Assembly (NCBI GenBank): GCA_029068655.1
Contig: JAIECF010000107.1
Span: 1 to 61,222 of the forward strand
DNA from: Muribaculaceae bacterium
GTDB taxonomy: Bacteria > Bacteroidota > Bacteroidia > Bacteroidales > Muribaculaceae
DNA: 61,222 bases
Direction: 5' to 3'
The notes beneath the pieces were generated by a model, which did no database searches, had not been told where the DNA came from, and saw only the letters and a list, made by a program, of their open reading frames with translations. Below, piece after piece: positions 24,621 to 41,800 of the stretch (positions within the stretch are counted from its first letter, which is position 1; each line of letters begins with the position of its first letter). Position numbers and translations under genes: made by a program.

Positions 24621-26336
24621 ATGAGAAGCTTGTATGTCATATCGGCTTGCTTGATACTGCTGTTCGGATTTTCCGGTTGCGGCAGACCTCAGAAGCAACT
24701 CGAGAGGATCGACACGCTTTGCGAAAGCAGTCCCCGACAGGCAGTATTTGCACTCGACAGCATCGACTATGGAAACCTTTCTGAAAAAGAACGCCATTAC
24801 TACGATTTTCTCTATGTGAAAAGCCGCGACAAGGCTTATGCCAGGCACTCCTCTGATAGCCTTATCCTTGACGCAATCAGCTATTATTCCAAGACTGACG
24901 ATAAAAAGCGATACGCGCAGTCGCTTTTCTACGCAGGGCGCATTTATTCACATCTTGGCGATCTCCCGTCAGCTATCGAATACTATTGCAAGGCTTCCGA
25001 TGAGTTCTCCCACCTCACTGACGACGAGGAATGCCTGAAACTTCGGGCTGAAGCGCTTAGTATAACCGGGCGTCTTCAAGCAGAATTAAAGCGTAACCAG
25101 GAGGCAATTCCCTATATAAAGAAAGCTATCTACGACCTCAAATATCAGAATGACAGCACAGGAATTGTCTACGACAACCTCCAGCTTGTAAAGATTTTCA
25201 CCGAAGAAAGCGACTTTGATCAGGCCAAACATCATCTTTCTGAGGCTATCAAATATTCAGATCATATACCTGAAGAGGGAAAGGCCTGGATCAGGTCTGA
25301 AAAAGCATCGATACTTATAAGTGAAGGGAAAGAGGATTCCGCCATGATAATAATGAAACCTCTAACCCGGCTTGTGGATTCTCTTTACAACAACTATGCA
25401 TATATACCGACCGGAAAATTTTTTAAGGATGGCAGTGATGCAGGATATATCTATGCTAAGGAATTGTCATTCAGTCGTGACTTCAACAATCAGTTAGTTG
25501 TCACCGAGCTTAGGCACCCATTGATTCCAAAAGATTCAGTTCATTCCTTTGTGATGGCATATGAGTCAAGAGTCAATGAACACATGAATCGGTATGAATC
25601 GGAAGAAGAGATGATGCAAAAGACAAAGTTCAACTATGACACTCATCTTAAGGCTCGCCGTAAAGCGGAAGCAGAGAAAAGACAGTTGATTTTTGCTGCA
25701 TGCATCCTACTGCTTATAGCCTGCGGGATAGCGGTATATTTCAAAATCAGAAGTCTGAAAAACGAGCTTCAACTCCGAACAGCACTAAATATCATCGACA
25801 GGATTGGATTTGTGGCAGAACTCAAAAACGCCGTAGAGTCAGTAGAAGTACCTTCTTCCAGAATAGAATATATCAGGAGTCTCAAGGCGCTGCCTATGGC
25901 TCACTCAGACAAGCCATCACTGAAAGAAGAGCTTCTTGACCGCCTGATGGCTTTTATTAGCGAAGAGATGCCCAAGGCAGATGTGCAAGATGAAATTTTG
26001 AAATCCCCGGTGATGGAGACTCTTCATAAAATGCTTGAAGAAGGGAAAGGCATAGCCCAAACCAACGAGGATATATGGCAAGGTATTGAAAAGACCGTAG
26101 AGGCTGTCTCTCCGGATTTTCGTGCAAAACTTGAAGTACTGGCATCCGGAAAGGTCACAAAAAGCGAATATCAGGTAGCCCTTTTAGCAAAATTCGGTAT
26201 CACTCCCAAGAAAATAGCATCTCTCCTCTACAGATCCAAATCAGCTATCACCGACCGCCGCTCTTCTCTCGCCAAAAAGATATTCGGACCGAAAGCCGAC
26301 ACCTCAGCCCTCGACCGCCTAATTGCAAGATTATAG
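24621..26336 (+). CDS. Membrane-anchored TPR protein with C-terminal HTH (one-component regulator)
   Basis: 571 residues in three parts. The N-terminal signal has a lipobox-like end (FSGC, Cys about 20). A periplasmic TPR-like helical region follows (about 25-340), with repeats such as AQSLFYAGRIYSHLGDLPSA and ALSITGRLQAELKRNQEA. One transmembrane segment lies at about 356-376 (ACILLLIACGIAVYF). The cytoplasmic C-terminus ends in a helix-turn-helix-like domain (FGITPKKIASLLYRSKSAI, about 525-545). This layout predicts a sensor that binds an envelope signal or partner and DNA inside the cell. It starts directly after the previous stop, and its own stop lies inside the inverted repeat of the following promoter, so it may regulate the adjacent propeller lipoproteins. 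DNA binding is an inference. Confidence 0.75.
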   Translation: MRSLYVISACLILLFGFSGCGRPQKQLERIDTLCESSPRQAVFALDSIDYGNLSEKERHYYDFLYVKSRDKAYARHSSDSLILDAISYYSKTDDKKRYAQSLFYAGRIYSHLGDLPSAIEYYCKASDEFSHLTDDEECLKLRAEALSITGRLQAELKRNQEAIPYIKKAIYDLKYQNDSTGIVYDNLQLVKIFTEESDFDQAKHHLSEAIKYSDHIPEEGKAWIRSEKASILISEGKEDSAMIIMKPLTRLVDSLYNNYAYIPTGKFFKDGSDAGYIYAKELSFSRDFNNQLVVTELRHPLIPKDSVHSFVMAYESRVNEHMNRYESEEEMMQKTKFNYDTHLKARRKAEAEKRQLIFAACILLLIACGIAVYFKIRSLKNELQLRTALNIIDRIGFVAELKNAVESVEVPSSRIEYIRSLKALPMAHSDKPSLKEELLDRLMAFISEEMPKADVQDEILKSPVMETLHKMLEEGKGIAQTNEDIWQGIEKTVEAVSPDFRAKLEVLASGKVTKSEYQVALLAKFGITPKKIASLLYRSKSAITDRRSSLAKKIFGPKADTSALDRLIARL

Positions 26337-26376
26337 TACGGATTGGGCAAGATCCCGTCTTATCCGTACTGTAAAA
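26333..26376 (+). promoter_or_regulatory. Shared operator, site A (inverted repeat upstream of the propeller lipoprotein pair)
   Basis: ATAGTACGGA (26333-26342), N20, TCCGTACTGTAAAA (26363-26376). The inverted repeat is 9 bp perfect (AGTACGGAT/ATCCGTACT). The same element with the same spacings stands at 33120-33163. It overlaps the end of the TPR-HTH gene and lies about 24 nt upstream of the -7 box at 26401. Confidence 0.8.
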
Positions 26377-26400
26377 CGACGTAAATCATAATGATTTTGA

Positions 26401-26408
26401 TAATTTTG
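26401..26408 (+). promoter_or_regulatory. -7 box of the propeller lipoprotein pair
   Basis: TAATTTTG followed by C, with no TTTG at the expected -33 position (CGAC at 26377-26380). A weak core preceded by an inverted repeat suggests activator dependence. The expected transcript has a leader of about 19 nt before ATG 26434. Confidence 0.7.
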
Positions 26409-26433: not shown

Positions 26434-27537
26434 ATGAGATGTAAAAGCATTATCGCGGCATTCACTGTAATAGCCATAGCCGGGATGGCTTCTTCCTGTT
26501 CAAGACAAGGAAAGGATGCAGATCCCAACGTATTATTGCCGGAGATCACATTAGGCAGTTTCGTCGATACGCAGACTCCTCTTTCAGAAATCATAGGAGA
26601 CTATCGCTTGATTCCATTGGAAACCACCGACGAGAGCCTGATCGGAGGAAGAACCAACAAGATTATCAAGAAAGATGGTCATATTTTCGTAAGGTCGAAC
26701 AATGAAGTATTGATGTTTGGAGAAAACGGCAACTTTCAGGATAAGCTATCGAGAGTCGGGGGTGGACCCGAAGAATACGAGAGCATTTTTGACTATGACA
26801 TAGTCCCGGAATATAACGAGATCTGGGTCTCATCAAATAGCGGAATCGTCAGATATGAGTATCCGTCGATGGAATTCAGCGGAACAATACCATTGAAATT
26901 CTTTGCCAACAGTTTCAAGTATCTCGGCAACGATACATTCATAGCATATACGCCTGAAGATATAGTCTACAAAGTAGTCTCCATGGATGGGAAAGTGCTC
27001 AATGAATACTTCGAGAAGGATCTTGCCAACAGTACTACTTTCCCGGTTCAGTTTGTAAGAATCGACAACTGCATAGCTACCCAGCTCGGGGATTCGAATT
27101 CGGCTGTCTGCTATGTGACTGACTCTGCATCATTCAAAATCAAGGATATTCTTTCGCCTAAGAATGATCAACTCGCTACTACTGAGATAAACCGCAAATA
27201 TTATGATCTGTATGGATATTTTGATTTCACTTCAAAGGTACGGCAGGATTATTCAACAGTATGTTGGTTTCGGAAAATAGGTGATCAGGCTTTGGTCTTT
27301 ATGCTTAATCCCGGGGATGAAAGATCAATCGTAATTGACAATGGTTCTACAGTCAAGGAATACAAGGTATGGCCCGAGGATAAGAATGTTATCAAAAACG
27401 ATATCTGCGATACTCCGGACGTGCCATATATAGTCACTTTTGGATCCTGCGACAGCGACGATTCCTTCATCTTCATACTGCCCAATGATGATGAAGAAGC
27501 AAACCCAACCCTCCTCGAAGTCAAGAAATTGAAATAA
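26434..27537 (+). CDS. 6-bladed beta-propeller lipoprotein
   Basis: Predicted outer-membrane or periplasmic lipoprotein of 367 residues. The signal peptide ends in a lipobox (ASSC, Cys about 22) followed by SRQGKDAD. The body has the Bacteroidales 6-bladed beta-propeller pattern: a strand ending in a solvent loop (IIKKDGHIFVRSNNEVLMF) and the hallmark VGGGPEEY, then repeated four-stranded blades. Function of the family is not established; binding of a ligand or partner protein is likely from the fold. It is the first gene after operator site A and is 18 nt upstream of a second, divergent propeller gene. Confidence 0.8.
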   Translation: MRCKSIIAAFTVIAIAGMASSCSRQGKDADPNVLLPEITLGSFVDTQTPLSEIIGDYRLIPLETTDESLIGGRTNKIIKKDGHIFVRSNNEVLMFGENGNFQDKLSRVGGGPEEYESIFDYDIVPEYNEIWVSSNSGIVRYEYPSMEFSGTIPLKFFANSFKYLGNDTFIAYTPEDIVYKVVSMDGKVLNEYFEKDLANSTTFPVQFVRIDNCIATQLGDSNSAVCYVTDSASFKIKDILSPKNDQLATTEINRKYYDLYGYFDFTSKVRQDYSTVCWFRKIGDQALVFMLNPGDERSIVIDNGSTVKEYKVWPEDKNVIKNDICDTPDVPYIVTFGSCDSDDSFIFILPNDDEEANPTLLEVKKLK

Positions 27538-27555
27538 TAATTTCAAATTAACACT

Positions 27556-28620
27556 ATGAGATTCGTGCATTTTATTAAGGTTATATCAACAATGACCTTT
27601 ATCGTGATGATAGCATCCTGTTCGAATAAAGAGAAAAGGAACACAGAATCAATTATGCCTGAAACAATGACTTTTCCCGAAAAAAGGACGGTGGAGATTG
27701 ATTTCGATGGAGCAGAGCCCATTACCAAACATTTCAAAAAAGTGGGTAATATTATTTTTGACGAAGACACCGAGGAGATAATCGGCGGCATACAACAGAT
27801 GATTGTGAGAGGCGATACCATCTATGCCGTTGACCCTGCAAAGAATCCCGGACTCTATGCCTACCTTAAGGATGGCTCACAGATATTTGCGTATTGTAAT
27901 CAAGGTGTCGGTCCGGAAGACATATCATCCCCTATGAGCCTTACCATCAATGATACTGAGATAATAGTATTTGACATGGCGGGAACAAAGCTTATACATT
28001 TCTCTAAAGATGGCAAGTTTCAAAAGAGCATCGACCTTCCGGTGTTCGCTCTGGCTGCAATCGAGGATAAAAATGGAGGCATTTGGATAGATTACTCCAA
28101 CCAGGAGTATGAGGATCTAAAACTCGCATGGAAGGCAGATGAGAAAAGCGACCCGGTTCCCGTTCTCGGAGTCCCTGACCATCTCAAAGGTATGACAACC
28201 GTGGAATTGGTCAATATGCTTCAGCTACCCAATGGAGAGCTACGCTACCTCCCAAGTCTTGAAATGCGTATCTACGCACTTCAAGACGGAAAAGCAGTTG
28301 AGGCATATGAACTGGACTATAAAGGCAAATGGCCATCAGAAGAGGATTTCAAGGCCAAATACGCGAGCAATGACTGGGCTATTAAGATCAGAAATATCCC
28401 TGTGAAAATAAAAGGGTTTGCTGAAAACGACCGTTGGCTCGTAATAGGGAATATCCTCAATCGCGAAAAGACCTACATTACCGTCTACGACAAGCAGACC
28501 GGAAAATCCACCACCTACATTGACTCTGACAAATCATATTACCATCCCGCCTATATAGACGGCGACAACCTCTACCTAACACGCCAGGACGACTCCATCG
28601 ACATCCTCTGCCTGCACTAA
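27556..28620 (+). CDS. 6-bladed beta-propeller lipoprotein (second copy)
   Basis: 354 residues with a signal peptide and lipobox (IASC, Cys about 23). Propeller pattern: IVRGDTIYAVDPAKNPGLYAY, the variant hallmark GVGPEDIS, then further blades ending YLTRQDDSIDILCLH. It is clearly of the same family as the preceding gene but diverged, so the pair probably has different partners rather than being a recent duplication. It is cotranscribed with the upstream copy (18-nt gap). The downstream gap contains a short CCGAAA/TTTCGG stem without a T-run and then a new promoter. Confidence 0.78.
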   Translation: MRFVHFIKVISTMTFIVMIASCSNKEKRNTESIMPETMTFPEKRTVEIDFDGAEPITKHFKKVGNIIFDEDTEEIIGGIQQMIVRGDTIYAVDPAKNPGLYAYLKDGSQIFAYCNQGVGPEDISSPMSLTINDTEIIVFDMAGTKLIHFSKDGKFQKSIDLPVFALAAIEDKNGGIWIDYSNQEYEDLKLAWKADEKSDPVPVLGVPDHLKGMTTVELVNMLQLPNGELRYLPSLEMRIYALQDGKAVEAYELDYKGKWPSEEDFKAKYASNDWAIKIRNIPVKIKGFAENDRWLVIGNILNREKTYITVYDKQTGKSTTYIDSDKSYYHPAYIDGDNLYLTRQDDSIDILCLH

Positions 28621-28691: not shown

Positions 28692-28723
28692 TTTGGATTT
28701 GAGGTGGGAAAGTGTTATATTTG
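28692..28723 (+). promoter_or_regulatory. Promoter of the AAA/PD-(D/E)XK gene
   Basis: TTTG (28692-28695), 20 nt, TATATTTG (28716-28723). A GTG at 28712 falls within this promoter and cannot be the start; ATG 28742 lies about 12 nt after the expected transcription start, preceded by AAGGAA. Confidence 0.82.
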
Positions 28724-28741
28724 CAAGGAAAAATAAAGACG

Positions 28742-30319
28742 ATGGCAACGATGGCTTACCCAGATAGAATGTTCCCTATAGGAATCCAAAATTTCCCCGA
28801 AATCATTTGGGAAGGATACACTTATGTTGACAAGACCTATTTTGTCGGTAAACTGGTAAAAGGTGGTAAATACAACTTTTTAAGCCGCCCCCGCAGATTT
28901 GGCAAAAGTCTTCTGCTCTCGACTATTCAGACATATTTTGAGGGACGACGCGAACTTTTCAAGGGACTTGCCATCGACAATATGTACTTGGATTGGACAC
29001 CAAGACCGGTACTCTATTTTGACTTCAACACTGGAAACTATGGACATCCTGATGGTCTTAAAAACCGATTGATAAGTCTCTTGAGATTATATGAAAAGGA
29101 ATATGACGTGGAAGTCTCAATGGAAGAAGACACTGCATTGCGTTTTGAGAACCTTATAAGGCAGGTCTATAAAAAAACGGGGCAGCAAGTGGTCATACTC
29201 GTTGATGAATATGATAAACCCTTGCTTCACCTTGACGAAAATCCTGAGCAGTTTGAGAAAAACCAAAGAATGCTGAAAGGTTTCTTCTCAAACCTGAAAT
29301 CGATGGATGCCTGCATTAAGTTTGGTATGCTCACAGGAGTAGCACGCTTCAGCAAGGTGAGTATATTCAGCGACCTGAACAACCTTGAGGATATATCCAT
29401 GCTCAATGACTATTGCGCCATATGCGGATGGACAGAAGAAGAACTTGTCAACAACTTCCGCACGGGCATACAAGCTCTTGCAGACGAACGCGAAGAGGAT
29501 TTCGACACGACTCTTCGCGCACTAAGGGATTATTACGACGGTTATCTTTTTTCTGGCAAGGGGTCAAGGATATATAATCCTTTCAGCGTTTTGAGAGCTC
29601 TTAAGGGAAGGGAGATCATGCCTTATTGGTTTGAGACCGGCACTCCGACATTTCTTGCGAAAAAGATAAAGAAAAGCGGGATAGATCCGGAATCACTCAA
29701 CGGTCAGACCCAAAGCTACAGCAACCTTATAGCCGTAGGAGTAGGAACTGACAATATTACTCCCCTCATGTTCCAAACCGGCTATCTTACCATCGAATCA
29801 TACGATGTACGCAGACAAAGATACACGCTTCGTTTCCCAAACCGTGAAGTTGAGATTGGTTTCGCGCAAAATCTGCTGCCTCTTTACGCACCGTCCACTG
29901 ACCGACCGGACAGTCCTTTCAGTATCGAGAGATTCAAAGACGACCTTTATGACGGCGACCCCAATTCGTTTATGAAGAGACTTGGTTCACTAATTAAAGA
30001 TCTCCCTTATGAGGACCATAGGGAGTCAACATATAGGGCCATCACATATCTTCTCTGCCTTCTTTCCGGGACGGATGCGATTCCTGAAAGACACTCCTAT
30101 AAGGGACGCAGCGATTTAGAGGCTTTGACTCCTGACTACTTCTATATATTTGAGTTTAAATACAATAAGAGCGTCGATGAAGCTATGCAGCAGATCTACT
30201 CTCAAGATTATGCAGGCCGTTACGCCATGGATTCGCGTAAAGTCTATCTCATCGGAGCAAACCTCAACGAAGACAACGAAGACCGAACCCTGGACTATGA
30301 GATTGTGGAACTGAAGTGA
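28742..30319 (+). CDS. AAA-ATPase-like protein with C-terminal PD-(D/E)XK nuclease-like domain
   Basis: About 525 residues of the AAA-ATPase_like plus PDDEXK_9 architecture, widespread and multicopy in Bacteroidales. The N-terminal part has a Walker A-like RPRRFGKSLLLSTI (Lys about 55) and a Walker B VVILVDEYDKPLL; the C-terminal part shows DYFYIFEFKYNKS, the E-x-K core of the nuclease fold. The family has been discussed as mobile or selfish because of its copy number, but function is unproven. It has its own promoter and no operon partner; a hairpin terminator is found 93 nt after it. The start was chosen from the promoter. Confidence 0.82.
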   Translation: MATMAYPDRMFPIGIQNFPEIIWEGYTYVDKTYFVGKLVKGGKYNFLSRPRRFGKSLLLSTIQTYFEGRRELFKGLAIDNMYLDWTPRPVLYFDFNTGNYGHPDGLKNRLISLLRLYEKEYDVEVSMEEDTALRFENLIRQVYKKTGQQVVILVDEYDKPLLHLDENPEQFEKNQRMLKGFFSNLKSMDACIKFGMLTGVARFSKVSIFSDLNNLEDISMLNDYCAICGWTEEELVNNFRTGIQALADEREEDFDTTLRALRDYYDGYLFSGKGSRIYNPFSVLRALKGREIMPYWFETGTPTFLAKKIKKSGIDPESLNGQTQSYSNLIAVGVGTDNITPLMFQTGYLTIESYDVRRQRYTLRFPNREVEIGFAQNLLPLYAPSTDRPDSPFSIERFKDDLYDGDPNSFMKRLGSLIKDLPYEDHRESTYRAITYLLCLLSGTDAIPERHSYKGRSDLEALTPDYFYIFEFKYNKSVDEAMQQIYSQDYAGRYAMDSRKVYLIGANLNEDNEDRTLDYEIVELK

Positions 30320-30585
30320 CAGTTGCCGCAACTGAAAATCAATATCAGAACTTTATTTGAAAATATGTTGCTTTAATACAATCATAACTAAATAAACTAA
30401 AGCATATCATCAGGTGTAGTTTCTTGGGTAGAAACTGCGCCTAACTTTTTATAGTTCTTAAAGTTATCTCAATTATTCACTTGTAATAGTTTCCACTCCA
30501 TAATCAAACACAAACAAATGTTAACTAAAATATACTTATGTTAAAATCTGGACTTTTCTAAGTCATTCGTAGTCATAGGAAGAAA
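30320..30585 (+). other. 266-base intergenic region upstream of the ECF sigma factor gene
   Basis: Holds one clear hairpin terminator (30412-30450) and AT-rich sequence on both sides. No TTTG-N20-TAnnTTTG promoter is visible before the sigma gene, so that operon may use another sigma factor, perhaps its own. No small ORF or tRNA is seen. Confidence 0.6.
30412..30450 (+). terminator. Intrinsic terminator between the AAA/nuclease gene and the sigma operon
   Basis: AGGTGTAGTTTC (30412-30423) pairs with GAAACTGCGCCT (30431-30442), 12 bp with two wobbles, loop TTGGGTA, followed by AACTTTTT. It isolates the sigma operon from upstream transcription. Confidence 0.85.
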
Positions 30586-31077
30586 ATGAACAGAAAAGGA
30601 TACATAAGACTGTTGACGGAAACGATGGAGAGCCAGAAACAAAGGCTCTTCAGGTATGCCTGTTACCGCCTCGGAAATCAGCAAGATGCCGAGGACATCC
30701 TACAGAATGTGTATCTCAAACTGTTAGAATCCATAGAGTATAGAAAACATCCGGAAAACCTCCGGGCTTACATATTCCGGTCTGTTGTGAATGCCTGTTC
30801 CGATTTCATGAAGCGTGAATCCAACATATCGAAGATTGCCACTTGCGACACACTTGAAATCGCTGAAGATCCTTCGAATTTCGAGGAAGAAGCAGTAATG
30901 ATCAATCGACTTGTGGAAAATATGCCTGAAAATCTACGAGATTATGTAAGGTTAAGAATCTACGCTGAGATGACTTTCGATGAAGTTGCCGAAACTATGG
31001 AAGTATCCTCTACTACCGCCAAAAGAAGGTTTTATGAAGGATTAGAATATTTACGTGCTAAACTCAATATGATATGA
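30586..31077 (+). CDS. ECF-type RNA polymerase sigma factor
   Basis: 163 residues with the two ECF domains: sigma-2 (RLFRYACYRLGNQQDAEDI with the DAED motif, about residues 20-50, and AYIFRSVVNACSDFMKRE) and sigma-4 (MTFDEVAETMEVSSTTAKRR, about 130-150). It is expected to direct RNA polymerase to a small set of envelope-response promoters. The next gene overlaps by 4 nt (ATGA) and encodes a single-pass membrane protein in the position where anti-sigma factors are found. No standard promoter precedes it, compatible with autoregulation. Confidence 0.88.
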   Translation: MNRKGYIRLLTETMESQKQRLFRYACYRLGNQQDAEDILQNVYLKLLESIEYRKHPENLRAYIFRSVVNACSDFMKRESNISKIATCDTLEIAEDPSNFEEEAVMINRLVENMPENLRDYVRLRIYAEMTFDEVAETMEVSSTTAKRRFYEGLEYLRAKLNMI

Positions 31078-31844
31078 AACTCTCCGACTACGAAAACTAT
31101 CAATCTTACCGGAGGCTTATCGAAATGCTCGAACCCCGTCATGCCCCAAAAACCTCCATCAAGTTCACCCCTCCAAAGAAAAAACATTCTTTACAGTGGT
31201 TGATTTTATGGTCCGGGAGGGCTGCTGCAGTATTGATAATCGCCGGCTTAGTGACATTATTAATAAGCCAGTCACAGCCAACAAACGGTGCTGTAAAGGT
31301 CATTGAATCAGCAATCGACAATATACGCACATCCGGATATTGCAACATAGAGTTTTCCGCAAGGATACTTCCAAGCCGCTCCCTTTATCCTCTTAAGATG
31401 TCGCCCAGAGGAGAGCTGAAACCCGTGACAATGACATTCAATTCTGACAGTATCTGCAATAGGATTGATCTTAAGTGGACAGATGATAATTCCAGGCATT
31501 GCCTCACAATGTACTCGGGAAACGTTGTAAATTTCCATGACGCAATGGTATCAAGCAGTACTCTGCCGTCAGAAGTCTTTTCCGTTTTGTCTAACGCTCT
31601 ACTTTCTCCCGATCCTGATTTCATTAAGATATTGGATACTCAGGATCTAAAGATGAAGACAAAATGGGATGATATCATTATCAAAAACGGAGGAAAAAAT
31701 AAAAAATACGAGTTCTGCATGACATTCTCGAAATCTTCCGGACGGCTCCTTGACTTTTCAGCCTATGACTATTCATATGGCAAGAAGACACTTATGATTA
31801 AGACAAATAAAATCAGCTATAACAATAATTTAAAGACAAAATGA
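31074..31844 (+). CDS. Single-pass membrane protein, candidate anti-sigma factor
   Basis: 256 residues: a cytoplasmic N-terminus of about 42 residues with a Lys/Pro-rich stretch (TPPKKKHS), one transmembrane segment (about 43-65, LILWSGRAAAVLIIAGLVTL) and a periplasmic domain of about 190 residues dominated by beta-strand patterns. It is not the classical FecR sequence and I do not recognise a named family; the C-terminal part resembles lipoprotein-sorting LolA-like folds only in general character. ATGA overlap with the sigma gene upstream and with the propeller lipoprotein gene downstream implies coupled translation. The anti-sigma role is inferred from position and topology. Confidence 0.6.
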   Translation: MKLSDYENYQSYRRLIEMLEPRHAPKTSIKFTPPKKKHSLQWLILWSGRAAAVLIIAGLVTLLISQSQPTNGAVKVIESAIDNIRTSGYCNIEFSARILPSRSLYPLKMSPRGELKPVTMTFNSDSICNRIDLKWTDDNSRHCLTMYSGNVVNFHDAMVSSSTLPSEVFSVLSNALLSPDPDFIKILDTQDLKMKTKWDDIIIKNGGKNKKYEFCMTFSKSSGRLLDFSAYDYSYGKKTLMIKTNKISYNNNLKTK

Positions 31845-33076
31845 AACAATTAATTACATTTACGGCATTGGCAGCTGCCGCTATGTTGCTTCCATCTTGT
31901 GGTCAAAAAGGGGGCGGCCAATCATCTCAAGAGGGTCGTACAATTTCCGAAATTCTCGCAGACTCGCCTGTTGCAGCGCAGCGGGTCTTAGTGGGAGAAG
32001 ACACTATGGTCGTTGCCCGGCTGACAGAAGCACCGGAGCCTGTGACTCTACTTGCTTCCGAGATGTTCGACGAGTTTGAGCTGATAAAGCTTGAGGATAC
32101 TGAAGGTGCCCTTACAGGAGGTGGCACGACATGGGTTTCCCAAAATCATATCTTGGTCTATGATGGTAATAATGTCAAACTTTACGACCGTAAAGGAAAG
32201 TTTATCGCTAATGTTGGAGCAAGAGGACAAGGACCTGGTGAATACTCCATCGCACCCTATTTCCTGACAATCGATGAGATGCAAGGGAAAATATACATGA
32301 TGACGTATTCAGCTTCACAGATCAATACATATAATGTTGCCGACGGCACCTTTGCCGGCAGTATTCCTTTGGTCTATGAATCGCCTAAAGGCTTTTGTAA
32401 GATAGACCCGGAAAATGGTCGGATCACAGTTGCAAGCATGCAGTTTAAAGATGTTGCACCCTGTTCTCCCGTTTGGGTTCAGGACTTCGACGGCAACCTT
32501 ATTTCTGAAGTTAAGCGTCCCGATCTTGGCATTACTCCCGATTTTTCAAATGAAATCAATCCGGGCATGAGTTCTGATGGGAAAGAGCTCTATCACTCCC
32601 AGTGTCTTATTACTGAATTGATAGCTGATACTCTTTATCGGTCAGACGGCAAGACCATTCACCCTGAGTTCACATATGATTTCGGTGAGAAGGTGCCGAT
32701 GCATTCATTAAGGTCTTTCCCCCAATTTTATGTAATGAAGATTTTCGGTGATCCCGTGATGGTATCTGAAAATTCATATATGGTTGGCAGCAATATGCCT
32801 TTTGTGATCGATCGCACCTCGCTCAAAGGTGCTCCTGCAGAATTGATGATTGACCAACTTGGTACACTTACATTTAAGAAAGATTGGGACTTTATGAGTA
32901 CTCCAGGCTATTTCACCATGTCATGTGATCCCGGCGATTTGCTTGACATGCTAAAAGCAGCCCCCGACACTCACCCATCAGCAAATGAAGATGGACTGAA
33001 ACGAATGGAGGAGCTGAGGAATTCAATCGACCATGATGGAAACCATTACGTCTTAATAGGCCATTGGAAACAATAA
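31841..33076 (+). CDS. 6-bladed beta-propeller lipoprotein in the sigma operon
   Basis: 411 residues, with signal peptide and lipobox (LPSC, Cys about 20) and a Gly/Ser linker. The propeller hallmark is the best of the three copies: ILVYDGNNVKLYDRKGKFIA and GARGQGPGEYS. It overlaps the preceding membrane protein gene by 4 nt, so sigma factor, membrane protein and propeller form one translationally coupled unit. By analogy with sigma/anti-sigma systems sensing from the periplasm, the propeller could be the sensing or target subunit; this is an inference. It is followed by operator site B. Confidence 0.8.
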   Translation: MKQLITFTALAAAAMLLPSCGQKGGGQSSQEGRTISEILADSPVAAQRVLVGEDTMVVARLTEAPEPVTLLASEMFDEFELIKLEDTEGALTGGGTTWVSQNHILVYDGNNVKLYDRKGKFIANVGARGQGPGEYSIAPYFLTIDEMQGKIYMMTYSASQINTYNVADGTFAGSIPLVYESPKGFCKIDPENGRITVASMQFKDVAPCSPVWVQDFDGNLISEVKRPDLGITPDFSNEINPGMSSDGKELYHSQCLITELIADTLYRSDGKTIHPEFTYDFGEKVPMHSLRSFPQFYVMKIFGDPVMVSENSYMVGSNMPFVIDRTSLKGAPAELMIDQLGTLTFKKDWDFMSTPGYFTMSCDPGDLLDMLKAAPDTHPSANEDGLKRMEELRNSIDHDGNHYVLIGHWKQ

Positions 33077-33119: not shown

Positions 33120-33163
33120 ATAGTACGGAATTGAAGGTCAGAAGCGGTATCCGTACAGTAAAA
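33120..33163 (+). promoter_or_regulatory. Shared operator, site B (inverted repeat upstream of the RND operon)
   Basis: ATAGTACGGA (33120-33129), N20, TCCGTACAGTAAAA (33150-33163). The inverted repeat is GTACGGA/TCCGTAC. Bases, half-site spacing and distance to the -7 box are the same as at site A (26333-26376). Confidence 0.8.
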
Positions 33164-33187
33164 TTTAGTATTTTAGTGATGTATGCC

Positions 33188-33195
33188 TAATTTTG
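33188..33195 (+). promoter_or_regulatory. -7 box of the RND operon
   Basis: TAATTTTG followed by C, 24 nt after the GTAAAA of site B, with TTTA instead of TTTG at -33. The leader of about 58 nt contains the inverted repeat GTTAAAGTC/GACTTTAAC (33213-33245). Confidence 0.7.
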
Positions 33196-33266
33196 CATGT
33201 GCTAATATGGTCGTTAAAGTCCTTCACGACCTTAAAGACTTTAACAACAAAAATCAGTAGATGGAT

Positions 33267-34358
33267 ATGAAGAAAACTATAATTATTATATTTGCCTGCA
33301 TTTTGGCTGCCGGATGCTCCCATCAGTCAAAAGAAGATGAGGGAAAAGAGCATACAGCTAAAGTCAAAGCCATTGAAACCGAAAAGATTCAGGAAGTAAC
33401 AGTCATGGAGCTGCAGCCCTCTACGTTCTGCCACGAGATAGTAAGCAATGGAAAGGCAACCGCGAGGGAAAAGGTCGATGTCAATTTTCAGACGCAGGGA
33501 ATCATCACAGCGATTTACGTCCGTAACGGTGAGCGCGTCAGCAAGGGCCAGAAGTTGGCCTCACTCGACACTTACAAATTGAAAAATCAGACAGACAGGG
33601 ACCGCAACTCCGTGGCTACAGCCCGACTCGAAATGCAGGACGTGCTGATCGGTCAGGGATACGATCCGGAGCATCCGGATAGAGTTCCAGAAGACGTGAT
33701 GCACCTCGCCCGCCTCCGCAGCGGACTCGAACAGGCGGAACTGACGCTCGCTGCTTCTGAAAAGGAACTTGCAAATGCCACCCTCACCTCACCGGTCGGC
33801 GGCATAATCGCAAACCTTACTTCCAAACCGCACAACATGACCACATCCGACCCTCTATGCCGCATCATCGACGATGGAGGTATGGATGTAGAGTTCACAG
33901 TGATAGAAAGCGAACTCGCCATGCTTCATCAGGGCGACGCAGTGTCAGTGTCATCCTTCTCGGATCCCGATAGCAAGGCAACGGGGCGCATCACGGAAAT
34001 AAACCCTATGGTAGACGAGCACGGGATGGTAAAGGTATGGGCATCGGTAGACGGAGGTAAGAACCTACTTGACGGCATGAACGTACGCGTGCGCGTGAAA
34101 CGTGAAGCTGAAAATACTCTCGTTGTTCCCAAAAGCGCAGTAGTGCTCCGTTCAGGCCGTCAGGTGGTATTCACGCTTAAGGAGGGCAAGGCCATATGGA
34201 ATTATGTAGCCACAGGACTCGAAAACCTCGACCAATACACAATCACAGAAGGTTTGTCTCCGGGCGATTCCATAATAGTCACCGGCAATATCAACCTGGC
34301 GCATGAGGCACCGGTCAAGCGGAGAGTGGAGAGCGGAGGGTGGAGAGTAAATAGATAA
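33267..34358 (+). CDS. RND efflux periplasmic adaptor (membrane fusion) lipoprotein
   Basis: HlyD/AcrA-family adaptor of about 363 residues linking the inner-membrane pump to the outer-membrane channel. MKKTIIIIFACILAAGC is a lipoprotein signal with lipobox AAGC. It then has barrel-sandwich (lipoyl) halves (VDVNFQTQGIITAIYVRNGE and ATLTSPVGGIIANL), a short alpha-helical hairpin between them (about 100-165), a beta-barrel and a membrane-proximal domain (VVPKSAVV near 288). An in-frame ATG at 33261 is also possible. The last residues (RRVESGGWRVNR) are encoded by a 7-mer tandem repeat, so the C-terminus may vary between strains. First gene of the efflux operon, under operator site B. Confidence 0.9.
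   Translation: MKKTIIIIFACILAAGCSHQSKEDEGKEHTAKVKAIETEKIQEVTVMELQPSTFCHEIVSNGKATAREKVDVNFQTQGIITAIYVRNGERVSKGQKLASLDTYKLKNQTDRDRNSVATARLEMQDVLIGQGYDPEHPDRVPEDVMHLARLRSGLEQAELTLAASEKELANATLTSPVGGIIANLTSKPHNMTTSDPLCRIIDDGGMDVEFTVIESELAMLHQGDAVSVSSFSDPDSKATGRITEINPMVDEHGMVKVWASVDGGKNLLDGMNVRVRVKREAENTLVVPKSAVVLRSGRQVVFTLKEGKAIWNYVATGLENLDQYTITEGLSPGDSIIVTGNINLAHEAPVKRRVESGGWRVNR
34321..34348 (+). repeat. Four 7-mers GGAGAGN at the end of the adaptor gene
   Basis: GGAGAGT, GGAGAGC, GGAGGGT, GGAGAGT in 7-nt register, inside the coding sequence just before the adaptor stop codon and 21 nt before the permease start. Confidence 0.85.
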
Positions 34359-34368
34359 AGGAATTTTT

Positions 34369-37300
34369 ATGATCAGATATTTACTTCATCATCGCATAGC
34401 TGTCATAATGGCCTTTCTGGCTTTGGTGATACTCGGGTGCGTGACTTTTAGCACACTCCCTGTCTCGCTTTTGCCGGATATTGACATACCGCATATCACG
34501 GTACAGGTGACTCAAGACAACGTATCTGCCCGGGAGCTGGAGAATACTGTTGTCACTCCACTGCGACGACATCTTATGCAGACGGAAGGTCTGAGCGAAT
34601 TGAAAAGCGAAACCCGTGATGGCTCCTCCATCATATCCTTGACAATGGATTATGGAGTCAATACCGACTTGGCATTTATTGAAGTAAATGAGAAAATAGA
34701 CGGGGCCATGAATTCTCTGCCTAAAGAAATCTCACGACCAAAGGCAGTGAAAGCCAGCGCAACCGATATACCGGTTGTCTATCTCCAAATGACGACTAAA
34801 GTCAATGATGAAAGTGGCTTCAATGAAATGTCGAGAATAGCCGACAACATCGTGCGCCGCCGTCTGGAGCAGCAACCGGAGATCGCTATGGTCGATATCA
34901 CCGGTATACCGGGACAAGTGCTGAAAATCACGCCGGATCTTGACAAGATGAAGCAAGCCGGACTCTCTGTAGAGGATCTCGAATCTGCCCTTGTAGCCAA
35001 TAACGTCGAGCCGGGATCTATGACAGTCCGTGACGGTTATTATGAGTACAATATCCATGTCACTAATCTTCTCCGTACAGAAGAGGATGTTCGGGAGATA
35101 AAAATCCTCAAAGGGAACAGGATTCTTACTCTCGGAGACTTCGCTGACGTGAATCTGACTTCCCAGACTCCTGCCGGATACTCACTCCACAATGGAAAGC
35201 GGGCTGTAACACTTGCCATCATAAAGCATTCCGAGGAAAGCTTGAAAGACATGAGGAAGGCACTCCAATCTACCATTGATCATTTCTCTGAGATATATCC
35301 CGACATAGAATTCACTGAGACGAGAAGCCAGACGGAACTCCTCGACTTCACCATAACCAACCTGAAGCAGAATCTTATACTCGGACTGATACTTGTATTT
35401 ATAGTCTGCATTCTTTTCATGCGGAACATTAGCTCATCTCTTATCATAGGACTAAGCATAATCGTAGGACTCATAATCACTTTCCTCCTTTTCTATCTCT
35501 TCCATGTATCGATCAATATCATATCTATGTCCGGGCTCATCCTCGCTGTAGGAATGATGATAGACAACTCAGTGATTGTGACCGAAAACATTACCCAATA
35601 CCGCCAGCGTGGCGATACTCTGATGGATTCATGCGTCAAGGGCACCAACGAGATGATCACGCCAATGCTTTCATCGTCGCTCACCACTGTGGCTGTCTTC
35701 GTGCCTCTTATATTCATGAGCGGAATAGCCGGTGCCATTTTCTCCGACCAAGCTTTCTCCATCACAGTCGGACTCGCCGCCAGCTATATCGTAGGCATCA
35801 CACTTCTTCCGGTACTCTACTATTTGATTGAAAGATTAAATATTAAAGATAAAAGATTAATTATTCATGAAATATCTAATAATTCAAAGCCATGCCATTG
35901 GGAAACCGGATATGAGTATGTGATGGACTTTTGCTTCCGCCACAAGTGGCCGTTGATCATCGCGACGTTGCTGACGGTGCCTTTATGCGTGGTGCTTTTC
36001 CTCCGGATGCCACAACAGAGGATGCCAGACATAGACTCCAACGAGACTCTCGTCAAAATCGACTGGAACGAAAACATCAGTCTTGACGAGAACCGCCGAC
36101 GGACGCTATCGCTGACAGATACCAACGCCATCATATATTCAGCTTATATAGGTCCACAAGACTATCTACTTTATTCAGACATCGACCTCTCTACAGCAGA
36201 GGCTGAGCTTTATTTCATGACGGAATTACCCTCCGGCATTGAACCCTTAAAGAAGAGGATAACTGACAAAATCAATATCCAATATCCCTCAGCGACTGTG
36301 AACTTTTCGAAAACGGAAAATATTTTCGAAAAGATATTCTCAACAGATGAGGCATATATAGAGGCAAGGATACATTCAGGCTCAGGACATTCAGCTTCCG
36401 AAGCAGCTGAGATTATGGAGTTAAGGGAGCGACTGAAAACAGCAACCGGGAACTATCTATCACCAATACCACTGCGTAGCCAGATCGATATAGCCATCAA
36501 CCGCGACCTACTGGCACTTTACAATGTGGATTATTCAGAAGTGCAACGGGTATTGCGTACGGCTTTCAAGGGAAATAAGGTGTCCACTCTCCGCTCATTT
36601 CAGGAATACACTCCTATTGAAATAGCAGGTAGAAATAATGATATTCAGGAAACAATCAGCTCTCTCTTCGTGCGCAGCCGTGCCGACAGACAAGGTTACC
36701 GCACGGAAATTCCGTTAAGAAACCTTATCAATACACACGAAAGTAAAGATTTCAAGACCATCACGGCGGGAGAGGCCGGAGAGTACGTCACAATAGGATT
36801 CAATACCTCCGGCAATGAGGAAAGCCTTATGAATATTATATCTGAAACAGTACGTGCTGACGGTAGACATGACGTAGACTTCGCGGGAAGTTTTTTCAGC
36901 AATTCCAGGATGATGAAAGAGTTGACCTTGATCCTACTCGTCTCGCTGCTGATGATGTATTTCATCCTGTGTGCACAGTTCGGAAGTTTCATACAGCCTC
37001 TTATCGTGCTTCTCGAGATTCCCATAGACACTGCATTCGCATTACTCACGCTGATGATGTTTGGACAGACCCTAAACCTTATGTCGGCCATCGGCATAAT
37101 CGTTACGTGCGGCATAGTTGTCAACGACTCCATCCTGAAGCTCGATGCAATAAACGAACTGCGAAAGGAGGGAACTCCTCTTCTTGAGGCTATTCACACA
37201 GCCGGACGCCGCCGTCTTAAGGCAATCATTATGACATCGCTGACTACAGTATTCGCGATGCTACCTGTATTGTTTACCTCCGATATGGGTTCAGAACTGC

Positions 37301-37404
37301 AACGTCCGCTCGCCATAGCCATGATTGGGTCAATGATAGTTGGAACCGCAGTCAGTATTTTCATTATCCCACTTTTTTATAAATGCATAATTCACAATTC
37401 ATAA
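34369..37404 (+). CDS. RND-family efflux permease, first copy
   Basis: Inner-membrane proton-driven pump, 1011 residues, full RND length. Expected features: N-terminal transmembrane helix then the periplasmic porter loop (about 35-325), TM2-TM6 cluster with the TM4 motif VGMMIDNSVIVTEN (single Asp where AcrB has Asp-Asp), a second porter loop and TM8-TM12 (VTCGIVVNDSILKLD). Between the two halves (about residues 487-510) the cytoplasmic loop is encoded by an AT-rich 7-mer repeat. AAAGGA precedes the ATG, 10 nt after the adaptor stop. Substrate unknown; hydrophobic/amphiphilic compound class (HAE-like) is likelier than metals. Confidence 0.92.
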   Translation: MIRYLLHHRIAVIMAFLALVILGCVTFSTLPVSLLPDIDIPHITVQVTQDNVSARELENTVVTPLRRHLMQTEGLSELKSETRDGSSIISLTMDYGVNTDLAFIEVNEKIDGAMNSLPKEISRPKAVKASATDIPVVYLQMTTKVNDESGFNEMSRIADNIVRRRLEQQPEIAMVDITGIPGQVLKITPDLDKMKQAGLSVEDLESALVANNVEPGSMTVRDGYYEYNIHVTNLLRTEEDVREIKILKGNRILTLGDFADVNLTSQTPAGYSLHNGKRAVTLAIIKHSEESLKDMRKALQSTIDHFSEIYPDIEFTETRSQTELLDFTITNLKQNLILGLILVFIVCILFMRNISSSLIIGLSIIVGLIITFLLFYLFHVSINIISMSGLILAVGMMIDNSVIVTENITQYRQRGDTLMDSCVKGTNEMITPMLSSSLTTVAVFVPLIFMSGIAGAIFSDQAFSITVGLAASYIVGITLLPVLYYLIERLNIKDKRLIIHEISNNSKPCHWETGYEYVMDFCFRHKWPLIIATLLTVPLCVVLFLRMPQQRMPDIDSNETLVKIDWNENISLDENRRRTLSLTDTNAIIYSAYIGPQDYLLYSDIDLSTAEAELYFMTELPSGIEPLKKRITDKINIQYPSATVNFSKTENIFEKIFSTDEAYIEARIHSGSGHSASEAAEIMELRERLKTATGNYLSPIPLRSQIDIAINRDLLALYNVDYSEVQRVLRTAFKGNKVSTLRSFQEYTPIEIAGRNNDIQETISSLFVRSRADRQGYRTEIPLRNLINTHESKDFKTITAGEAGEYVTIGFNTSGNEESLMNIISETVRADGRHDVDFAGSFFSNSRMMKELTLILLVSLLMMYFILCAQFGSFIQPLIVLLEIPIDTAFALLTLMMFGQTLNLMSAIGIIVTCGIVVNDSILKLDAINELRKEGTPLLEAIHTAGRRRLKAIIMTSLTTVFAMLPVLFTSDMGSELQRPLAIAMIGSMIVGTAVSIFIIPLFYKCIIHNS
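35825..35859 (+). repeat. Five 7-mers inside the permease gene at the junction of its two halves
   Basis: TGATTGA, AAGATTA, AATATTA, AAGATAA, AAGATTA in 7-nt register, in frame, in the loop that joins the N- and C-terminal RND halves; AT-rich sequence continues to about 35888. The composition is unlike the surrounding coding sequence and like the intergenic repeat at 23761. Confidence 0.8.
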
Positions 37405-37414
37405 TGCATAATTA
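37387..37414 (+). repeat. Four 7-mers at the permease-channel gene junction
   Basis: ATAATTC, ACAATTC, ATAATGC, ATAATTA in 7-nt register across the permease stop and the start of the outer-membrane channel gene. Confidence 0.8.
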
Positions 37415-38894
37415 TAATCATTCTATTTGCAAATCCCAATTGCTGCTGACGCTTGCGATGCTTCTATCAGGATTTATGACCCCAGCATCGGCTGTGACTC
37501 TAACACTCGGCAAAACGATAGAGCTTGCCAACGACTCCTCTCTGATGGCCTTCCGATACCGCAACATGTATCAGGCAAGCTATTGGCAATACATAAGCTT
37601 CCGTGCCGGGCGCCTTCCGAGCCTTTCGCTGACAGTTACTCCGGCATCCTACAACCGGTATATGACACAGCGATACGATTTCGACCAGAATATAGACGTA
37701 TTCCGCCAGCAGCAGATGTTCAGTGCATCGGCCGGGCTGGAGCTACAGCAGAATTTCGACCTCTTGGGGGGAACGTTCTATCTTGACACAGATCTCGAAT
37801 ATATGCGCAATTTCGGCGCAAATACCTATACGCAATTTTCATCGGTCCCCGTCAGAATCGGCTACCGGCAAAACCTCATAGGCTTCAATTCCTTCAAATG
37901 GGAGCGTAAGATAGAGCCTCTCCGATATGAGAAGGCGAAAAGGGAACTTATCTATAATATGGAGAAAGTGAGTGAACAGGCAGTGACATACTTCTTCAAT
38001 CTTGCACTTGCTCAGGCTGAATACCGGCTGGCAGAGGAAAATGTGATTTCATGCGACACTATGTATGTCATCGGCGAGCGACGTTTCCGCATAGCCTCAA
38101 TATCTAAAGCTGATCTCCTTACCCTTGAACTCGATCGAGTCAATGCGCGCAACACATTGGAAAACACTCGCATTTCCCTGAAACGAGCGATGTTTTCATT
38201 AGCTTCATTTCTTGGGATGGACAAGAATTCCTATATAGAGGTGGAATTGCCCGGAAAGCCAAGAGATGCATACATTCCTGCCGACTTGGCCCTTACATAC
38301 GCTAAGGAAAACAACCCTACCCTTCTCGAACACAGGCAGAACATTCTCGAAGGAGAACGGGAAGTAAGCCGGACTGTGGCAGAGGCTCGCTTTAATGCTT
38401 CAGTAAATGCTTCTGTCGGCTTCAATCAGGTATCTGACCGATTGCCTGAAGCTTACCGTTCGCTTCTCCGCCAAGACCTCGTGAATGTTACAGTTTCGGT
38501 TCCTATTGTAGACTGGGGAGTGCGCAAGGGAAAGGTGAACATGGCGAAAAACAATCTTGATGTCACACGTATAGCAGCGGAGCAGGAGGAACTTTCGATA
38601 GAGGAAGAAATACTGATGACCGTCAGTGACTATGAGATACGCAAAAACATGATAGCCTCCGCCTCGGAAGCCCTTGATCTCGCAGACATGGCATACGAAC
38701 AGACTCAGCAGCGTTTCATCATAGGCAAGGCAGACGTCAACTCCATGACGCTTGCGCTCAACAGAAAGCAGGAAGCCTCTAAAAACTACATCCTCGCACT
38801 CCAGAACTTCTGGCTGAGCCATCACAAGATACGCCGCCTCACTCTCTACGATTTTGTAATGGACCTCCCCCTCTCCCGAGAATTTGACCTATGA
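37404..38894 (+). CDS. Outer-membrane efflux channel (TolC/OprM family)
   Basis: Outer-membrane factor completing the tripartite pump. About 496 residues with a signal peptide ending near PASA (about 30), then two repeated coiled-coil and beta-hairpin halves typical of TolC proteins (Ala/Leu/Glu-rich helices such as YFFNLALAQAEYRLAEENV and ALDLADMAYEQTQQRF). The permease stop and this ATG share a base in TAATG at 37402-37406; the earlier ATG at 37383 lies within the repeat and would add seven residues before the signal. It overlaps the second permease by 4 nt (ATGA). Confidence 0.88.
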   Translation: MHNYNHSICKSQLLLTLAMLLSGFMTPASAVTLTLGKTIELANDSSLMAFRYRNMYQASYWQYISFRAGRLPSLSLTVTPASYNRYMTQRYDFDQNIDVFRQQQMFSASAGLELQQNFDLLGGTFYLDTDLEYMRNFGANTYTQFSSVPVRIGYRQNLIGFNSFKWERKIEPLRYEKAKRELIYNMEKVSEQAVTYFFNLALAQAEYRLAEENVISCDTMYVIGERRFRIASISKADLLTLELDRVNARNTLENTRISLKRAMFSLASFLGMDKNSYIEVELPGKPRDAYIPADLALTYAKENNPTLLEHRQNILEGEREVSRTVAEARFNASVNASVGFNQVSDRLPEAYRSLLRQDLVNVTVSVPIVDWGVRKGKVNMAKNNLDVTRIAAEQEELSIEEEILMTVSDYEIRKNMIASASEALDLADMAYEQTQQRFIIGKADVNSMTLALNRKQEASKNYILALQNFWLSHHKIRRLTLYDFVMDLPLSREFDL

Positions 38895-41800
38895 GACATT
38901 TTTCAATAATCGTGCTCTTTATCGCTCTGTCGATAGCGGGATGTGCACTTCTCCCTCTTCTGCCTGTGAAACTCGTACCATCGATGACACTCCCTTCAAT
39001 CACGGTTAGTTTCTCGATGCCGGGTGCGTCTGCGCGCATGGTCGAGCAAGAGGTCACGTCACGAATCGAGTCTGTACTTGCACGAATAAACGGGGTCAAG
39101 GATCTAGACTCGAAATCACGGGAGGGTGGAGGACGAGTATCACTGAGTCTTGACCGCCATACCGATATGGACCTTGTGAGATTTGAGGTGTCTACACTCG
39201 TGAGGCAGATATGGAGTCAGTTTCCTGAAGGCGTAAGTTATCCTATCATATCGCTCCGACAAGCTGACAGCCATTCCTCCCGACCCTTCATGACCCTTAC
39301 ACTTAACGCACCAGCCAATCCACCCGAGATAATGAAATACGGAGAAGAAAATCTTAAGCCATTGCTTGCAAGGATAAAGGGAGTAGCAAAAGTGGAGTTA
39401 AGCGGTGCACAACCGATGGAATGGAAGCTACATTACGACATTGACAGGCTTTCAACGCTTGGGATCACCCCATCTGATATCAGCGAAGCCATAAGTGAAC
39501 AATATAAGTCAGAATTTCTCGGCATCTCCCCCATAATAAGAAAAAAGGGTAAGGATTGGCTCCGCATCTCTATCGGGTCGGAAATCCATCAAGGAAGCTT
39601 TAATCCCGCCGATATCACATTGGCCGCTAAAGACGGAAGTCTGATAACTCTTGACAAGATAACGGAATCTATTCATGAAGAGACCACCCCTACAGGCTAC
39701 TTCCGTATAAATGGCCTGAACTCCGTTTATGTCAGTATCACAGCTGACGAATATGCGAATCAACTTGATGTAGCTGAAAGGATAACCTCGTGCCTATCAA
39801 CTTTTTCACGCACAATGCCCACAGGATATATGGTAGAGACCATATACGACGCTACTGAAGAAATACACAGGGAACTCGACAAATTATATTTCAGGTCAGG
39901 ACTTACGATACTGATACTGATTATGTTCGTAGCTTTGGTTTCGCTGAGTTTCCGCTACATGCTCCTTATCACCATCGGACTTACTGTCAATATCTCTATT
40001 GCGATAGGATTATATTATCTTTCAGGAATTGAGATACAGCTTTATTCCCTCGCGGGCATCACAATCTCACTTAACCTCATAATAGACAATCTTATAGTAA
40101 TGGCAGACCATTACACTCGCCAGCGAAATACCAAAGCGTTCACCGCCATCCTTGCGGCTACCCTCACTACGATAGGCGCACTTTCCGTGGTGGCATTTAT
40201 GGATGAGGAGACTCGCCTTAGCCTGCAGGATTTCGTTGCTGTAGTCATCATAAACCTATCGGTCTCCTCAGCGGTAGCACTTCTTCTTGTTCCAGCTCTC
40301 GTAGAGAGACTCGGCATACACAGAAGAGGCAAAGACGGTAAAGTCTCCCGATTCAGGAGAAGAATAATGATCATACTCTCTCACTTTTATAGTAAAATTG
40401 TCTGTTTCGTCCTGAGGTTCAGGACAGTCTTCCTCCTTATCATCGTTCTTGCGTTTGGCCTACCGGTGTTTCTGATTCCCGAGAAAATAAACGAGAATAA
40501 TTGGATCGCAGAGAAATACAACGCCATGTTCGGATCGGTCACATATAAGGAAAAAGTAAGGCCATGGATCAACAACATACTTGGAGGTACACTTAGACTT
40601 TTCGTGGAGAAAGTCAACAATGGCTCATATTGGGACAGAACTCCCGGTGAACCGATACTTGGCATAAATGCAACTCTTCCAAATGGAGCTACTCTCGAGC
40701 AGATGAACACCCTCATATGTAAAATGGAGGAATATCTCGCAGGATTTTCGGAGATAAGACAGTTTCAGACAAATATATCGAGTCCTCGAAGAGCTTCTAT
40801 TTCGGTTTTTTTCCATGAGGATCACCAGCACGATGGGTTTCCATATAGGCTCAAAGGTGAGATAGTGTCTGAAGCACTCACTATCGGGGGCGGCTCGTGG
40901 ACTGTATACGGACTTCAGGATATGGCATTCAACAACGATGTGAGGGAGAATGCGGGAAGTTATCACGTAAAGATGACCGGCTACAACTACGACGAGTTGT
41001 ACAATTGGACGGAAGCGATGCGCGACACGCTCCTGTCACATCGAAGGATCAAAGAAGTAACGATCTGCTCTGAATTCTCATATTGGAAAGACGACTATTC
41101 CGAGGTTTATCTTGTCATCGATCGCGACAAGCTCGCAAAAACCGGTTTGACAGTAAACCATATCTTCGAAGCCATAGAGCCGACATTCGGACGTGGCATT
41201 ACCAGCGCGGCTATACCTACTGAGCGCGGCAGCGAGCTGATACGTCTCTATTCCCGGCAGGGAGAGAGCTATGATTTATTCGCTCTTCTCCACCAGCCCT
41301 TCAGCGCCGGTGAACGCACTTTCAAGCTAACCGACATCGGATACATAGAGAAGCAACAGACACCCCCCGATATTGTCAAAAAAAATCAGGAATATGTGTT
41401 GTGCCTTCAATATGAATACATCGGCTCTCCCAGACAGGGGGAACGCGTGCTTGAGAAAGATCTCGAAAAGATCAATACTTTGCTTCCTGTAGGATACAGA
41501 GCAGAAAAGCAGAAAAATGAATGGAAGGACAATGATGATTCGCAGAAATACCTTCTGCTACTTTTAGTGACAGCTATTACATTCTTTACTACTTCAATAC
41601 TCTTCAATTCCCTGCTTCAGCCTCTCGCAATCATTTTCATGATTCCTATTTCATTCATCGGCGTCTTCCTGACATTCTATCTCTTGAATCTTAACTTCGA
41701 CCGGGGTGGGTTCGCCTCATTCATTCTTCTGGCAGGAATCACCGTCAATGCCGCAATCTATATAGTAAGTGAATACAATGGTCTTCGACGGCTCTTCCCC

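Follow-up and report, generated by a model that had tools for sequence, protein, structure and literature searches.

Two promoters of a Muribaculaceae genome carry the same composite element, an inverted pair of the heptamer GTACGGA held at a fixed distance from the -7 box. Judged from sequence, both copies are probably private operators of the membrane-anchored one-component activator encoded beside the first of them, here called the TPR-HTH regulator, which would act by the mechanism proposed below. TPR-HTH regulators form a large family in gut Bacteroidales, and behind most of those examined lies an array of repeats phased at 11 bp, with a word peculiar to that regulator. The two promoters lie in a stretch of 61,222 nucleotides (contig JAIECF010000107.1), which is referred to as the window.

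The composite element and its surroundings

The element reads GTACGGA-N20-TCCGTAC-N31-TAATTTTG and occurs base for base at positions 26336-26408 (site A) and 33123-33195 (site B). Site A consists of a left half-site (26336-26342, plus strand), a right, promoter-proximal half-site that reads TCCGTAC on the plus strand (26363-26369, minus strand) and the -7 box TAATTTTG of the propeller operon promoter (26401-26408, plus strand). The corresponding parts of site B, upstream of the RND operon, lie at 33123-33129 (plus), 33150-33156 (minus) and 33188-33195 (plus). Around the half-sites a longer block, ATAGTACGGA-N20-TCCGTAC(T/A)GTAAAA, extends over 26333-26376 and 33120-33163, and its sole difference between the two sites is T26370 against A33157. 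When up to three mismatches were allowed, the longer block was matched twice in the window and never in 100 dinucleotide shuffles of it. The initial annotation had described the same string before both operons with one differing base, and had claimed identical spacings of 20 bases between the half-sites and 24 bases from GTAAAA to the -7 box; the description was found to be exact, and the gap from TCCGTAC to the TA of the box is 31 bases at both sites.

Housekeeping promoters of Bacteroidetes have TTTG at -33 and TAnnTTTG at -7. The -7 box is present at 26401 and 33188, and the -33 TTTG is missing from both promoters, as had been stated. At site B the -33 place is occupied by TTTA (33164-33167), 20 bases before the TA of the -7 box.

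Site A lies between the regulator gene (24621-26336, plus strand, 571 aa) and two genes for 6-bladed beta-propeller lipoproteins of the DUF5128 family, at 26434-27537 and, 18 bases downstream of the first, at 27556-28620 (both plus), which probably share one operon. The stop codon TAG of the regulator (26334-26336) has one base in common with GTACGGA. Site B precedes an RND efflux operon on the plus strand that encodes a periplasmic adaptor (33261-34358), a first permease (34369-37404), a TolC-like outer-membrane channel (37383-38894) and a second permease (38891-42031). Between the two sites, the stretch 30586-33076 encodes an ECF sigma factor (30586-31077), a 256-aa protein and a third propeller lipoprotein, and the same order is seen in the sister species G077 (locus L100). 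The 256-aa protein matched no Pfam family and could be called an anti-sigma factor by position only. A protein with AAA-ATPase_like and PDDEXK_9 domains is encoded between the propeller pair and the sigma operon (28712-30319).

The specificity of the element was assessed at several levels. A bare half-site occurs 8 times in the window against 4.07 expected, and 7 of 100 shuffles reach 8, so that it is not rare. The half-site pair with a spacer of N18..22 and no -7 box was found in 8 of 61 genomes and its reversed control in 2 of 61; the pair without the box is thus not perfectly specific. It is the paired, box-phased arrangement that is exceptional. The initial annotation had proposed a search of the genome and its relatives for sites placed at promoters. 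In the genome itself (3.6 Mb in 264 contigs, 86% complete), GTACGGA-N16..24-TCCGTAC was matched at sites A and B only, both at promoters, and the reversed pattern was not matched. The 5' region of the RND operon also contains units of about 9 bp (33206-33244; of the type TTAAAGTCC, TTCACGACC or TTAAAGACT), which look like members of a dispersed repeat family, since matches are scattered across other genomes of the same genus.

The regulator and its company in sister species

Pfam recognised TPR models only in the TPR-HTH protein, and no NCBIfam model matched it at E 0.001. An AlphaFold2 model built from 65 sequences (mean pLDDT 81.2, pTM 0.57) places a TPR solenoid at residues 23-283, a long helix with a hydrophobic stretch at 328-406, and an all-helical C-terminal domain, devoid of strands, with a recognition helix at 540-555. 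Cys20, which follows a signal-like helix, is near-invariant (at least 90% conserved), and this conservation suggests that the N-terminus is lipoprotein-like or exported. Sequence and model together fit a predicted topology with a periplasmic TPR domain, a membrane helix and a cytoplasmic C-terminal HTH domain. A profile of the TPR part matched many TPR proteins among solved structures. The profile of the HTH domain matched no solved structure significantly; three regulator chains, presumably LuxR-like, appeared at the nonsignificant E values of 0.33, 0.49 and 0.91. No account of these operators or of this regulator family was found in searches of the open-access literature.

The pattern GTACGG-N19..23-CCGTAC-N29..34-TAnnTTTG was searched for in 111 genomes of the same genus and gave 15 matches in 10 of them, with none for the reversed control in all 111. 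A window-type regulator was defined by the recognition helix SAI[ST]DRRSSLA, and such helices were present in only five genomes when all same-genus matches to the HTH profile were inspected. These five account for nine of the 15 matches (G000, two; G013, one; G077, two; G114, one; and G134, three), the regulator of G134 running off the end of its contig. The other six matches are in G003, G015, G032, G074 and G132; those in G003, G015 and G032 are arrays directly 3' of another TPR-HTH paralogue.

Orthologous promoters were compared with respect to the regulator, where "without a regulator" means that none was found in genomes that are incomplete, which does not prove absence in any single genome. 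RND adaptor orthologues (E up to 1e-60) were found in 16 of the 111 genomes, in 21 copies. When the best copy per genome is considered, all 4 genomes with a window-type regulator have the site (G013 has it with one mismatch), and none of the 12 without a regulator does. The remaining adaptor copies had no half-site pair in the available upstream sequence, up to 1400 bp, and a few of them had lone half-sites; a second adaptor of G134, 39% identical, has no site. Propeller orthologues (E up to 1e-30) were found in eight genomes, and the site is present in 5 of 5 with a window-type regulator (that of G013 on a short contig, L006) and in 0 of 3 without. The co-occurrence anticipated by the initial annotation is therefore seen: the sites accompany window-type TPR-HTH proteins and are missing from orthologous promoters where no such regulator was found.

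At the propeller and RND orthologues of sister species both spacings are kept, with 31 or 32 bases to the box, and the spacer bases have diverged. The initial annotation had read the element as an activator operator at fixed helical phase, and this reading is supported at the sequence level by the promoter location and the conservation of both spacings. In G134, each of the two propeller genes has a site of its own, and the RND operon keeps its site although the gene upstream is a different one (by eye, signal peptidase I-like). In G077, a HigB/HigA-like toxin-antitoxin pair (L100, 11071-11734) separates the TPR-HTH gene from site A, and the site is kept. The TPR-HTH protein had been named the leading candidate regulator on the ground that its stop codon lies within the left half-site. 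The candidate is strengthened by the co-occurrence, but the overlap is incidental, because in G077 the site stays at the propeller promoter, apart from the regulator. Another TPR-HTH gene, different from the first, is also located in the syntenic region of G077 (L100, 6323-8128), and a further propeller-like lipoprotein comes after it.

A scan of GTDB contigs for the exact pair with the box returned 12 stretches, six of them labelled Muribaculaceae bacterium. Six of the 12 were inspected: a TPR-type or TPR-HTH gene precedes the match in L180 and L182, the match in L185 is the site of G074 again, and L176, L177 and L181 have no TPR-HTH-type gene upstream in the inspected part, so that the last three matches look like chance. 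The record of L182 (JAMPBQ010000012.1) is labelled Clostridium sp., probably mistakenly: its TPR-HTH gene is typical of Bacteroidales, and it also has a GTACGGA array and a gene that by eye resembles a C10 protease.

Paralogous regulators and their arrays

A profile of the C-terminal domain matched 47 of 111 genomes of the same genus (E up to 1e-15) and 10 of 247 genomes across the order, our own included (E up to 1e-10). Removal of 7 duplicates from the 104 C-terminal hits left 97, and removal of 8 with less than 200 bp downstream left 89; seven loci retrieved solely to look for window-type helices are outside these counts. We scored each gene for a 6-mer, containing two or more G or C, of which an identical copy follows at a distance of exactly 11 bp in the first 260 bp or so after the stop codon. 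This was the case for 58 of the 89 TPR-HTH genes, compared with about 3 in shuffled sequence (30 shuffles), and the next commonest distances were 22 bp (15) and 21 bp (14). The other long ORFs of the same loci passed in 11 of 251 cases; three of these (L104, L107 and L109) are by position TPR-HTH genes that had been removed as duplicates, and without them the count is 8 of 248. The test was failed by 31 of the 89 paralogues, and it does not detect a single inverted pair such as that of the window. In the order-wide sample, 7 of 14 loci passed, L187, L189 and L191 among them with longer repeats, and 7 failed.

The window element is a single inverted pair, and most paralogue arrays have several half-sites with an 11-bp period. 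Many arrays have direct copies in one orientation followed by the opposite orientation nearer the promoter, and in L072 each arm is made of two copies around an inner spacer that is again N20. The words differ between paralogues: 29 different words were found in the 72 arrays read by hand, among them GTACGGA, GTGCGGA, CTACGGA, ATTACGG, GTGAGAA, GTGCTGA, GTTCGGA, GTTCCAA, GTTTAGT, ATGACTG and ATTTCAG. The initial annotation is corrected in this respect, in that the operator belongs to an extensive series of arrays, each specific to its regulator. In L048, L068, L074 and L075 the TPR-HTH gene is split by stops or frame changes and the repeat array is still present 3' of it. In L049 (G007, C32) a unit made up of the TPR-HTH C-terminus, the sequence after it and a small secreted protein occurs twice in tandem, almost unchanged in sequence.

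The position of the arrays relative to the promoter was determined for the 72 paralogues with hand-read words, 57 of which were measurable, having an inverted half-site with a TAnnTTTG box within 20-45 bp. The promoter-proximal half-site lies 31-32 bp from the -7 box in 46 of the 57; the gap is 42-43 bp in 6, 21 bp in 2, and 30, 33 and 40 bp once each. The distance between the two arms of an array varies among paralogues. Apart from the three gaps seen once each, the classes are about one helical turn apart, a pattern that fits an activator making contact with polymerase from a fixed face.

Association between regulator and word was examined with the same hand-read words, available for 72 of the 97 paralogues (25 had no assigned word). 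Nine near-duplicates were removed for the coupling and correlation tests, leaving 63 pairs, among which L048, with an unreadable helix, was kept; it was removed for the nearest-neighbour test. Of the 11 strongest residue-base couplings, 6 involve residues 540, 541, 544, 545 and 546 of the predicted recognition helix. Lys540 co-occurs with G1 (43 of 43) and C4 (42 of 43), Arg546 with G6 (42 of 49), and Tyr or His546 with A6 (9 of 12). The strongest single coupling (z 9.9) links word position 4 to residue 79, which belongs to the TPR domain, and residues 315, 119, 509 and 567 are likewise among the top 11. The partial correlation between helix and word given the TPR domain was 0.327, a value reached in 0 of 500 permutations, and that between TPR domain and word was -0.049. 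When words were instead chosen by script (53 regions, 49 after an identity filter), the correlation was 0.284 for the helix (0 of 500), 0.123 for the tail (1 of 500), 0.096 for the TPR domain (10 of 500), 0.043 for the HTH scaffold (58 of 500), and 0.064 and 0.055 for parts of the linker. Word similarity thus follows recognition-helix similarity far more than that of other protein parts, and the association is clear. A predictive recognition code was dropped: leave-one-out nearest-neighbour prediction gave 5.17 of 7 bases right from the helix, 5.18 from the TPR domain and 5.16 from a constant word (scaffold, 5.05; linker, 4.27), and hence no usable code was shown.

The genes behind the arrays were surveyed in the 77 cassettes with at least 1.5 kb downstream. 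By an iterated profile, a small secreted protein is the near next gene in 45 of the 77, and the window belongs to the 32 cassettes that have none. The two small secreted proteins of the same genus that were tested, and that of L182, matched no Pfam family. An ORF of 300-520 aa with a CxxxCxxC motif is present in 13 of the 77, and the two tested (L047 and L067) were Radical_SAM by Pfam; the cassette of L065 contains a C25 peptidase. Among order-level relatives, the next gene was DUF3244 in 2 of 3 tested. In L047, L055, L062, L067, L069 and L075, short peptides with a GG leader, many of them Cys-rich, and/or radical-SAM-like proteins are encoded after the TPR-HTH cassette, and these loci look like peptide natural-product operons. 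Gene neighbourhood gives rise to the idea that the sensed signal may be a peptide made by the cassette.

Proposed mechanism, related systems and significance

We propose that the periplasmic TPR domain would sense an envelope or extracellular signal and that the cytoplasmic C-terminal HTH domain would bind the GTACGGA half-sites, for which the covariation argues. Bound 31 bp 5' of the TAnnTTTG box, the regulator could substitute for the missing -33 TTTG contact and, as the geometry suggests, activate RNA polymerase at two operons, that of the propeller lipoproteins and, in trans, that of the RND efflux system. Across paralogues, the recognition helix would have diversified together with its operator word, and for this reason cross-talk between paralogues is probably lacking. 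Direct binding, dimerisation, activation rather than repression, the use of the two -7 boxes for transcription starts, and insulation between paralogues are what we infer from the sequences.

The geometry also bears on whether the TPR-HTH protein could instead be a repressor, held on the paired half-sites and released on signal. Inverted pairs are common in repressor operators, and looping between the two arms would be possible, the arm distance being variable among paralogues. However, the half-sites mostly end 31-32 bp 5' of the -7 box and do not overlap it, the exceptions at 21 and 42-43 bp are one helical turn away, and neither site has the usual -33 TTTG; repression is accordingly an unlikely reading.

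Two further explanations would leave the TPR-HTH protein out of the regulation, and both were rejected. The sites might be read by a different regulator, such as the ECF sigma factor, whose operon lies between them, with the TPR-HTH protein a bystander. This is very improbable, given that the -7 box is of the housekeeping type (by the consensus above), that no GTACGG occurs just ahead of the sigma gene (30300-30620), that the RND site of G134 adjoins another gene, and that both the helix-word correlation and the co-occurrence indicate the TPR-HTH protein. The inverted repeat begins at a stop codon and might therefore be an RNA-level element, a terminator for the TPR-HTH gene or an attenuator hairpin, for which we see scarcely any chance. 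Lying upstream of the -7 box, the element should be outside the target transcript, its second copy follows a different gene, and in G077 it stays with the promoter, apart from the TPR-HTH gene; moreover, related arrays have direct copies at 11 bp, and a terminator scan marked nothing at the repeat. Activation by the TPR-HTH protein is thus the reading with which the known systems are compared below.

The pho box bound by PhoB consists of 7-bp words with 4 bp between them, giving an 11-bp period, and the TPR-HTH arrays likewise have 7-bp words with an 11-bp period. Unlike PhoB, the TPR-HTH protein has no visible phosphorylation domain, its words differ between paralogues and an inverted arm is present; the predicted C-terminal domain also has no beta-wing or strand, in contrast to the winged helix of PhoB/OmpR proteins. 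RRNPP and Rgg proteins are cytoplasmic peptide-pheromone regulators with an N-terminal HTH and a C-terminal TPR domain. The TPR-HTH family resembles them in the fusion of a TPR sensor to an HTH and in the peptide-product-like operons that adjoin some relatives, but does not fit their architecture, having a predicted periplasmic TPR domain, a C-terminal HTH, a lipobox-like Cys and a hydrophobic helix. TPR genes near RiPP clusters of Bacteroidales are mentioned in PMC10352776.

According to PMC3878776, the SusR-like regulators of Bacteroides are single inner-membrane polypeptides with a periplasmic sensor and a C-terminal HTH without clear similarity to known DNA-binding domains; motif similarity among paralogues follows regulator similarity, and the predicted sites, in glycan-use regulons, are pairs of direct repeats whose centres lie 67 or 77 bp apart. 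A periplasmic sensor, a membrane helix and a C-terminal HTH in one chain would fit the TPR-HTH sequence and model as well, the HTH has no clear known match, and word similarity tracks regulator similarity. SusR-like proteins are compared here by description only, and on that basis the TPR-HTH family differs in its TPR-type sensor, in its arrays, where 7-bp words at 11 bp plus inverted copies take the place of repeats 67 or 77 bp apart, and in its targets, namely propeller lipoproteins, RND efflux, small secreted proteins, and radical-SAM or peptidase operons. In ToxR and CadC the winged HTH is N-terminal and the periplasmic domain C-terminal. The TPR-HTH protein would share with them the design of a one-component regulator that is bound to the membrane and acts on promoters from there, but its domain order is reversed and its model has no wing. 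In the main text of PMC10269533, on ToxR/CadC-type regulators, neither "TPR" nor "tetratricopeptide" occurs.

One regulon would join propeller lipoproteins of unknown function with an RND efflux operon, and the peptide and protease operons of other species may be governed by the same type of switch. More tentatively, gut Bacteroidales may possess large, fast-diversifying and insulated sets of TPR-HTH circuits, each with its own word and cassette and possibly sensing outside peptides in an RRNPP-like manner; in that reading, the cassettes precede secreted-protein, peptide natural-product (radical SAM) and protease operons, and each operator word changes in step with the recognition helix. The much-duplicated, uncharacterised membrane regulators of Bacteroidales would gain an operator that can be read from sequence, from which their targets could be predicted. 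Because the 72 natural pairs, with their 29 words, differ in few helix residues and few bases, they constitute a ready-made data set for a recognition code, and natural regulator-operator pairs might supply sensors that do not interfere with one another for the engineering of gut commensals.
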